From contig WAKH01000018.1 of assembly GCA_015523485.1 (NCBI GenBank), positions 1 to 48,667 of the forward strand: DNA of 48,667 nt. The letters run 5' to 3'. Shown piece after piece: positions 43,722 to 46,404 of the stretch. The stretch is from Thermodiscus sp. (GTDB lineage: Archaea; Thermoproteota; Thermoprotei_A; Sulfolobales; Acidilobaceae). The position numbers and the translations under genes are program-made. Positions within the stretch are counted from its first letter, which is position 1; the number at the start of each line of letters is the position of its first letter. Below the pieces are notes generated by a model that saw only the letters and a list, made by a program, of their open reading frames with translations, was not told the DNA's origin and did no database searches.

Positions 43722-45308
43722 TTGCCGTCTAGAGGGGGTGTTGCATTCTCTAATGCAGTTATTGCAATTGTCCTCATAGTCATAATCATCGCCGGAATTA
43801 TCCTGTGGATAACAAAGCCGTGGAGCGTGGAGCCAGTCACTACCACAACTAGTACGACTAGACCAGAATATTCCCAGTTAACGATAGGTGTGGTCTCAAG
43901 CAAGATAGTATTGGACCCAGCCGTCGCAGACGACTATGTCTCATGGGAAATCCTCTCAAAGGTAATGGAAGGCCTCGTGAAAATCGATCCCAAAACAGGC
44001 GCCATTAAGCCAGGCATTGCTGAGAGATGGTCGACCCCTGATAACGGGCTAACATGGATATTCATATTGAGGAAAGGAGTGAAATTCGCTGATGGAACTG
44101 AGTTAAAGGCAGAGGACGTAGTAAGAAGTATCCAGAGAGTCATGATAATTAGAGGATCCTATTCATGGTTAGTGACAGAATTCGTGTATAATATACAGGC
44201 TCTGAATGATACCGCGGTAATGATAAAGCTAAAGAAATCAGTCCAAGACTTCCCTGTTATCGCAAGCCTGCCTGTTTACTACATAGTCCACCCCAATTAT
44301 CCACTACAGAACCCAGTACCTGGAGCAACTTACGGTGGAGTGGGTCCGTACAAGATTGACTCAGTGACCACCAACCAAATCATCCTGTCCGTAAATCCAA
44401 ACTACTACGGTGAGCAGCCAGGAACCAAGAAACTCGTCTTCAAGCTTTATCCGAGCAGCTCAGACTTAAGGAGCGCGTTGGAAAATGGAGAAATAGATAT
44501 TGCATGGTGGGGCCTAACGCAGGAAGATGCGGCCAAACTAAAATCTGAAGGCTACAATGTCATTACATCTGATAAGACCGCTGTCAAGATCCTAGCTTTG
44601 AAGGTTTCAGGTACTAGGCCTACCCATCTCCCAGAAGTGAGAAAAGCAATTGCATACGCGGTAGATCCACAAGCCGTTTCAAACGCCTTACCAGGCGATT
44701 ACGACGAACCAGTTCTCAGCGTTATCCCCTCAAACTACATTGGATATACCGAAGCATACAAGAATTATACAGGTAAAATGATTGACAAATCTAAAGAATT
44801 ACTGAGAAAGGCTGGATACGGCGAATTCAACCTCCTAAGACTGACCCTAATAATTTCGTCAAGTACATATGGTTCAAGCGACCTCGCTATAGCCAATGAA
44901 ATCAAGAAGGACATTGAAGAGACGGGCGTTGCTTTCGTCGAGATAAAGGATCTTCCACATGACGCGTTTCTAGGAGCCATATTAACAGGGGACTATGATA
45001 TGGCACTCATTACTCTATACCCAATATATCCCGATCCAGCATTTTACATAATGCTAAGCGTGTATAGTAAAGCGAACAAGTATCTTGGAATAGGATATGT
45101 TAATCCACAAGCAGATACCCAGATTGAACTGGCCTTGTCAACCGTAGATTACTCTCTCCGGGCAAGAATATACGAAACCATTCAAACTACTTATCTGAGC
45201 CATGACGTTCCACTAGTACCGTTAGTCGAATTCCCAACGTTCGCCGCGATGAAGAGCGACATAACAGGCGTAGAAATACTGCCAAATATGTTCCTATCAA
45301 CTCCCTAA
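43722..45308 (+). CDS. ABC transporter substrate-binding protein, family 5 (peptide/nickel type)
   Basis: N-terminal TM anchor and Thr-rich linker, then YVSWEILSKVMEGLVKIDPKTGAIKPGIAERWSTPDNGLTWIFILRKGVKFADGTELKAEDVVRSIQR. Confidence 0.93.
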   Translation: MPSRGGVAFSNAVIAIVLIVIIIAGIILWITKPWSVEPVTTTTSTTRPEYSQLTIGVVSSKIVLDPAVADDYVSWEILSKVMEGLVKIDPKTGAIKPGIAERWSTPDNGLTWIFILRKGVKFADGTELKAEDVVRSIQRVMIIRGSYSWLVTEFVYNIQALNDTAVMIKLKKSVQDFPVIASLPVYYIVHPNYPLQNPVPGATYGGVGPYKIDSVTTNQIILSVNPNYYGEQPGTKKLVFKLYPSSSDLRSALENGEIDIAWWGLTQEDAAKLKSEGYNVITSDKTAVKILALKVSGTRPTHLPEVRKAIAYAVDPQAVSNALPGDYDEPVLSVIPSNYIGYTEAYKNYTGKMIDKSKELLRKAGYGEFNLLRLTLIISSSTYGSSDLAIANEIKKDIEETGVAFVEIKDLPHDAFLGAILTGDYDMALITLYPIYPDPAFYIMLSVYSKANKYLGIGYVNPQADTQIELALSTVDYSLRARIYETIQTTYLSHDVPLVPLVEFPTFAAMKSDITGVEILPNMFLSTP

Positions 45309-45363: not shown

Positions 45364-45424
45364 GGGCTATGATGAACGACTTCGGATCTGAAAAATAATG
45401 TTGATCCGTGTGAGGTCTGAGCCC
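45364..45424 (+). ncRNA. C/D box sRNA (2'-O-methylation guide)
   Basis: GGGC-TA[ATGATGA]... : C box ATGATGA 45369-45375; guide ACGACTTCGGAT 45376-45387 (12 nt); D' CTGA 45388-45391; spacer AAAATA; C' ATGTTGA 45398-45404; guide TCCGTGTGAGGT 45405-45416 (12 nt); D CTGA 45417-45420; terminal stem GGGC 45364-45367 with GCCC 45421-45424. Confidence 0.85.
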
Positions 45425-45438
45425 TTATACTTAGCTAA

Positions 45439-46107
45439 TCACATTAAGTTTTCCAGCAGAGTCTTAGAGCACCCACCCACGAACCTCATCCTTTTGATAG
45501 ATTTTTCCTGACCTTGCACAAAGAGATTCCCAAGTAAGCCCTCTTCCGAGGGTGATAATATCAAGACTTCCCCGATTCCATTCAATTCAGACATAAGAGC
45601 CAATATTAAAGCGGAATAAAGGAGGACTAGCTCGTTATCTGAGCTTTCCACGACTACTATCGCCTTAGACTCGCGTGGTATATAGAATGATACAGGTAGC
45701 TGGATGCCCGAAGGGCTTGCTAGGTATGCATTTTCTAAGTACTCATGCCCTTTTGCTTGCAACAAGCTCTTGATTTCTTTCTTACACTCAATAGTAGAGT
45801 CGGATGAGAGTAGTAGCTTATACAGGGCCTTCATGGCTAGGAGTGCTAGCATTCCCTTGTCTGTTAGACTGTAATATATTTCCCTACCTATCTTCTTGGA
45901 TGATACCGCACCGCCATTTTCGAGCATTCTGAGATACTTAGCCGCTGTACTACTATTAAGATTACATCTATTTAATATATGAGTTTTTTTGGATGAACCA
46001 TGTGATAATTGTACTAGGACACACTTGAATATATCAAAGTAGCCCCTATAGCGCCTGCTATGTGTATCTCGTTCCATAATCTCTTCACTGTATAGTTTGA
46101 TGTTCAA
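45439..46107 (-). CDS. Winged-helix transcriptional regulator with C-terminal sensor-like domain
   Basis: SSKKTHILNRCNLNSSTAAKYLRMLENGGAVSSKKIGREIYYSLTDKGMLAL. Confidence 0.75.
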   Translation of the reverse strand: MNIKLYSEEIMERDTHSRRYRGYFDIFKCVLVQLSHGSSKKTHILNRCNLNSSTAAKYLRMLENGGAVSSKKIGREIYYSLTDKGMLALLAMKALYKLLLSSDSTIECKKEIKSLLQAKGHEYLENAYLASPSGIQLPVSFYIPRESKAIVVVESSDNELVLLYSALILALMSELNGIGEVLILSPSEEGLLGNLFVQGQEKSIKRMRFVGGCSKTLLENLM

Positions 46108-46203
46108 ATGTTATGCACCCTTGTTACTCCGTGTCAAGAGCCTTGTTGACGCGTTAATATCTGAATGGTTTGATAATACATGTAAAACCATCGATGATAA
46201 CGT

Positions 46204-46313
46204 TGGTGGGCCCGCGGGGATTTGAACCCCGGACCACGGGGTCCCGAGTCGGGCACCGCCCCCTGTCGGGGCTCGGCGTACCCCGCATCCTAGCCAGGCT
46301 AGACGACGGGCCC
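46204..46313 (-). tRNA. tRNA-Pro (anticodon CGG), with encoded CCA and a 32-nt intron
   Basis: Acceptor GGGCCCG/CGGGCCC, D arm GTCTAGCCTGGCTAGGAT, anticodon stem CGGGG/CCCCG, loop T-[intron]-TCGGGA, T arm CGGGG-TTCAAAT-CCCCG, then ACCA. Confidence 0.9.
46248..46279 (-). other. tRNA intron (32 nt) at position 32/33
   Basis: Intron acgccgagccccgacagggggcggtgcccgac. BHB: central helix CGGG (27-30) with intron CCCG, bulges GU^A and AC^U, inner helix CGCCG/CGGUG. Confidence 0.8.
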
Positions 46314-46404
46314 TTCATTCCGTTTTGTGTTCATCATTAGTAACAGGAGTCATCCAGTTATAATAGTTTAGGAGAAGATATTTAGACTCTAGCTTAATTT
46401 CTTA

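Follow-up and report, generated by a model that had tools for sequence, protein, structure and literature searches.

Why introns persist in archaeal tRNA genes is an open question, and many of the guides in C/D-box sRNAs that target tRNAs are listed without a target. The intron of archaeal pre-tRNA-Trp is itself a C/D RNA, which guides Cm34 and Um39. Stand-alone archaeal C/D sRNAs are already known for Cm34 of intron-containing tRNA-Met, where the guide pairs partly with the intron (PMC2584109); in the available accounts, these include haloarchaeal sR-tMet and Pyrococcus sR49, both guides for elongator pre-tRNA-Met (Joardar et al. 2011 via PMC4033218; PMC2584109). For Pyrobaculum sRNAs that target tRNAs, one guide is reported to address the tRNA and the other to have no target (Lui et al. 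2018, as cited in PMC7994747), and in humans the C/D RNPs SNORD97 and SCARNA97 are described as making Cm34 in elongator tRNA-Met (PMC6601510).

We analysed a window of 48,667 nt from a Thermodiscus sp. contig that contains a box C/D sRNA resembling each of these systems in part. As in sR-tMet and sR49, to the extent that the sources above describe them, it is a separate, not intron-encoded, RNA that places C34 of pre-tRNA-Met at +5 in a duplex running from the anticodon loop into the intron, such that methylation would precede splicing. At the sequence level it does not match sR49 and falls outside that family (13.5 bits on the Rfam model RF01303, cut-off 50). It differs from both known guides, as summarized in those sources, in that its other guide also pairs with the intron, at an element that covaries, and in that Thr, Val and Ala tRNAs are additional candidate targets, although Joardar et al. 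2011 may describe a similar second contact. Like pre-tRNA-Trp, it would tie a tRNA intron to C/D-guided wobble methylation before splicing; however, there the intron is itself the guide RNA, whereas here it would receive a guide from a separate gene. The Pyrobaculum sRNAs likewise have a tRNA target around position 34, but, in contrast to what the citing source reports for them, the second guide of the window sRNA has an intronic target. The human RNPs act on the same nucleotide of elongator tRNA-Met, but they are eukaryotic, and the portion of PMC6601510 that was covered describes no intron docking.

The literature covered, which excludes Joardar 2011, Lui 2018, Clouet d'Orval 2001 and all supplements, yielded no description of a second guide that pairs with a distal intron element, or of an element common to Met and Thr introns. 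We provisionally regard a covarying, proposed intron docking site common to Met and Thr precursors as new. Here an apparently target-less guide finds a partner in a discarded part of the tRNA, with compensatory changes in many genera. For Met and Thr introns this offers a function open to direct test; it also points to places where the targets of other orphan guides may be sought, and illustrates how G:U pairs could let a single guide serve several wobble positions.

The sRNA gene and its homologues

The gene occupies a 130-nt gap between a family-5 solute-binding-protein gene (+ strand, ending at 45308) and a winged-helix gene (− strand, ending at 45439). An earlier note on this DNA had described a complete sRNA between convergent genes, with two guides of exactly 12 nt, four boxes and a terminal stem; re-reading of the sequence bore this out in each respect, and the RNA recurs across the order (Table 1). 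Boxes C (RUGAUGA) and D (CUGA) are joined by the terminal stem as in archaeal box C/D sRNAs, and the internal D′ (CUGA) and C′ (UGUUGA) boxes are degenerate yet present in relatives. The C′ sequence given in the earlier note, AUGUUGA, needs a small correction of scope, as its UGUUGA form is local and most relatives have UGAAGA. The genome encodes fibrillarin (E = 1e-104). Scans for bacterial-type promoters and terminators, which are not applicable to archaea, found nothing.

Table 1 Features of the C/D-box sRNA gene, in window coordinates.
Feature	Position	Strand	Remarks
Whole C/D-box sRNA gene	45364..45424	+	61 nt; read directly from sequence; homologues in 150/199 genomes of the order
5′ arm of terminal stem, GGGC	45364..45367	+	Pairs with 45421-45424; ends closed in predicted fold
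Box C, AUGAUGA	45369..45375	+	Read from sequence; conserved in alignment of homologues
D′ guide, ACGACUUCGGAU	45376..45387	+	Complements element in pre-tRNA-Met(CAU) and pre-tRNA-Thr(CGU) introns; proposed docking arm
D′ box, CUGA	45388..45391	+	Read from sequence; degenerate in relatives (CAGA, CCGA, CGGA)
Spacer, AAAAUA	45392..45397	+	Read from sequence
Box C′, AUGUUGA	45398..45404	+	Read from sequence; RUGAAGA in most relatives
D guide, UCCGUGUGAGGU	45405..45416	+	Pairs with anticodon loop, position 34 at D+5: Met, Thr(CGU), Val(CAC/UAC), Ala(CGC)
Box D, CUGA	45417..45420	+	Read from sequence
3′ arm of terminal stem, GCCC	45421..45424	+	Read from sequence

BLAST with a 101-base query retrieved diverged homologues from other genera and families (best E = 4.1e-8). 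A sequence-only model found the sRNA in 150 of the 199 genomes and 65 of the 75 genera of the order, nearly always as a single copy; the model was built from ten copies that include the window copy, the score of which is thus by construction. Aligned homologues conserve box C, the D′ guide core CGACUUCGG, C′ (RUGAAGA), the D guide CCGUGUGAGG and box D; the D guide is almost invariant across the order, with a core that is identical in all ten aligned sequences. No Rfam family reached its gathering threshold; the matches below it were to different C/D-box families, led by sR3 with 22.2 bits (cut-off 41). The sRNA is no chance resemblance: it is real and old, and has been kept by vertical descent.

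The spacer between D′ and C′ is highly variable in length among homologues and forms a hairpin in some. It measures 6 nt in the window copy and about 30 nt, with a potential GC-rich hairpin (GCCCC...GGGGC), in two copies from the same genus (L010 of G003 and L184 of G002; here and below, G denotes genomes, f families and L loci). One genome, G148, carries two copies on opposite strands, approximately 4.4 kb apart (L216 and L217), the second with CCGUGUAAGG in the D guide, possibly a duplication with a changed target.

Candidate target sites of the two guides

Both guides were searched against the 30 tRNAs of the same genome. A search of rRNA and tRNA had been proposed in the earlier note; no rRNA genes were found in the assembly itself, and the 16S and 23S genes of relatives, used instead, contain no site that matches either guide consistently, whereas tRNA precursors match both. 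The earlier note recognized no rRNA match for the second (D) guide, but this guide does have a tRNA target: it forms 10 Watson–Crick pairs with the anticodon arm of tRNA-Val(CAC) (CCUCACACGG, the fourth letter being C34, at D+5). When G:U pairs are allowed it also fits Val(UAC), Ala(CGC), pre-tRNA-Thr(CGU) and pre-tRNA-Met(CAU), always with N34 at D+5. The match to the Met(CAU) anticodon loop comprises nine contiguous pairs with C34 at +5 and one mismatch at position 31. In both pre-tRNA-Met and pre-tRNA-Thr the CGG of the D-guide target is supplied by the intron; in Met precursors the CGG(C) that follows A37 is intronic, and the duplex includes these bases. As the splicing motif places its own constraint on the CGG that opens the Met intron, we gave that CGG no weight as independent evidence. 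Predicted energies are −19.5 kcal/mol for Val(CAC), −19.1 for Ala(CGC), −14.9 for Met, −13.5 for Thr(CGU) and −10.3 for Ile2(CAU).

The D guide has the composition expected if Y-R-Y anticodons shared one guide. The invariant G that faces position 36, a U in Met and Thr, is suited to the C at this position in Val and Ala; the U facing position 35 tolerates A or G, and the G facing position 34 admits C or U but excludes G34 isoacceptors. A hypothetical guide for Met only would read CCGUAUGAG. In intronless tRNA-Val(CAC), CCUCACACGG is kept in 24 of the 30 Val genes fetched, the rest being other Val isoacceptors or genes from f3 and f8. Pairing to Val and Ala would require the anticodon stem to open. 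The gene that we infer to encode tRNA-Ile2(CAU), from its similarity to tRNA-Ile(GAU) (L047), lacks the intron CGG, and its pairing with the D guide is weak compared with that of pre-tRNA-Met; in archaea, C34 of this tRNA is converted to agmatidine (PMC7668247).

An element complementary to the D′ guide, CCGARGUCG, is present in the introns of pre-tRNA-Met(CAU) and pre-tRNA-Thr(CGU/UGU). Among the tRNAs of its own genome, the two best matches of the D′ guide are the introns of Met (CCGAAGUCG, 9/9 Watson–Crick pairs) and Thr(CGU) (AUCCGAGGUCG, 11 pairs). On the precursor the D target comes first and the D′ target 6–21 nt further 3′, at a similar distance in relatives; this order and the antiparallel sense allow one sRNA to bind one precursor. 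In relatives, the length of the Met and Thr introns and their sequence outside the element are free to vary. Counting against docking, the Met element lies partly within a predicted hairpin. In G007 and G019 an extra base interrupts the Met element, and families f2, f11 and f6 keep the sRNA with Met introns that have no element.

Covariation of the D′ guide with Met and Thr introns

Changes in the D′ guide are accompanied by matching changes in the introns. In G008 and G020 the guide CGAUUUCGG occurs with CCGAAAUCG in both Met and Thr introns, and across genera the guide CGACUCGG is matched by the intron sequence CCGAGUCG. Further pairs are CGACCUAUU with AAUAGGUCG (G040), CGAUUCCGG with CCGGAAUCG (G058 and G081) and CGACUCCGG with CCGGAGUCG (G066), whereas the guide CGAUCUCGG is found with CUGAGAUCG in G032, including one G:U pair, and with the Thr intron CCGAGAUCG in G042. 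In G001 the same 1-nt deletion is present in the guide and in both introns. We scored the 9-nt guide core of each genome on its own introns and shuffled guides among 31 genera: the observed score was 590.0 compared with 497.5 ± 15.0 expected, and none of 5,000 shuffles scored as high; this procedure takes no account of deeper phylogeny, although the changes described above are spread over several families. In the 31 variant cases, a genome's own guide paired with its introns better than the consensus guide did in 18, equally well in 9 and worse in 4 (in G028, G038 and G068). In genomes with the consensus guide, 37 of 48 introns pair over all 9 nt.

The f2 genomes G024, G034, G062, G091 and G102 and the f11 genomes G139 and G183 have Met introns that are too short for the element, and their D′ guide has diverged while the D guide is kept. 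In two f3 genomes where no sRNA was detected, the Val loop is altered and reads CUCACAAGG. These patterns of joint loss, in the introns of f2 and f11 and in the Val loop of f3, come from small samples and are at most supportive. The D′ guides of f2 and f11 share a different motif, GAACWYYGG-like (L172, L214, L220, L208 and L218), which suggests a switch of the D′ arm to a different target in these families.

Proposed function and alternatives

Our main reading, to which we assign a probability of about 80%, is that the sRNA would act as a multi-target guide for wobble methylation, with a D′ arm that docks on pre-tRNA introns. Once expressed, it would assemble with L7Ae, Nop5 and fibrillarin into an RNP and direct fibrillarin to 2′-O-methylate the wobble nucleotide 34, most likely in the elongator Met tRNA and probably also in Thr, Val and Ala tRNAs. 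In the Met and Thr precursors the first intron bases would form the 3′ part of the D-guide pairing, and methylation would therefore have to precede splicing. The D′ guide would pair with the 9-nt CCGARGUCG further into the intron, and one sRNA could thus clamp one pre-tRNA at two places. The D′ arm would serve mainly in docking, adding affinity and selecting elongator pre-tRNA-Met over tRNA-Ile2(CAU).

The D′ guide had been assigned in the earlier note to the 16S decoding site, with methylation of the G at approximately position 1491, and this genome's guide does form 8 contiguous pairs (GAAGUCGU) with that conserved site in the 3′ minor domain. The match is limited to these 8 bp (−12.1 kcal/mol), with the proposed methylation site at its edge. 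The complementarity is not conserved across relatives: six 16S genes of relatives span the site and all read GAGAAGUCGUAAC there, including that of G008, whose D′ guide (CGAUUUCGG) is unable to pair with it. Given also that nothing in 16S corresponds to the additional conserved CGG of the guide and that D′ guides elsewhere follow tRNA introns, not 16S, the assignment falls and a 16S target is extremely improbable. A true methylation guide for an intron nucleotide, the methyl mattering, for example, for intron stability or circularization, would fit the D′-like box that follows the guide in most copies and a pairing that is long enough. However, 46 of 69 copies have 2 nt between the pairing and the D′ box and 18 have 1 nt (G001, scored as 1 by the script owing to its shortened core, has 2 by eye), and the D′+5 nucleotide is therefore sometimes the G and sometimes the A of CCGA; moreover, the D′ box is degenerate in relatives and the targeted base is discarded by splicing. 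We consider this function quite unlikely, and selection appears to keep the D′ pairing rather than a fixed methylation site in the intron.

The D guide invites two other views. As Val(CAC) is its best match (10 Watson–Crick pairs, −19.5 kcal/mol), and the invariant G that meets U36 in Met and Thr would pair ideally with C36 of Val, tRNA-Val(CAC) and tRNA-Ala(CGC) could be the main substrates and the Met and Thr pairing secondary. This would leave the covarying pair of D′ guide and intron in Met and Thr precursors unexplained, and we regard it as unlikely. Because the D-guide duplex covers the junction of A37 and the intron and, judging from the predicted pairing, would block the bulge-helix-bulge fold, the sRNP might instead be mainly a splicing timer or chaperone that, paired across the 5′ splice site and the intron, delays the tRNA-splicing endonuclease, with methylation incidental; such a role is very unlikely in view of D+5 falling exactly on N34 in all targets and of the conservation of boxes C and D. 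Beyond wobble methylation with intron docking at this locus, we see even chances for a wider proposal: that across the order the introns of at least two kinds of tRNA gene, Met and Thr, are retained for a trans-acting C/D sRNP to land on, in which the D′ arm would dock non-catalytically, a G:U-degenerate D guide would methylate position 34 of Y-R-Y anticodons, and the intron would tell elongator Met(CAU) from tRNA-Ile2(CAU).

As a separate observation on the tRNA complement, the window also contains a tRNA-Pro(CGG)-like gene (46204–46313, − strand) with an intron of about 32 nt. Neither the default scan nor the RF00005 search detected this gene; it was found only by ARAGORN with introns allowed, and it overlaps the spurious ORFs 46154–46318 (−) and 46170–46340 (+).
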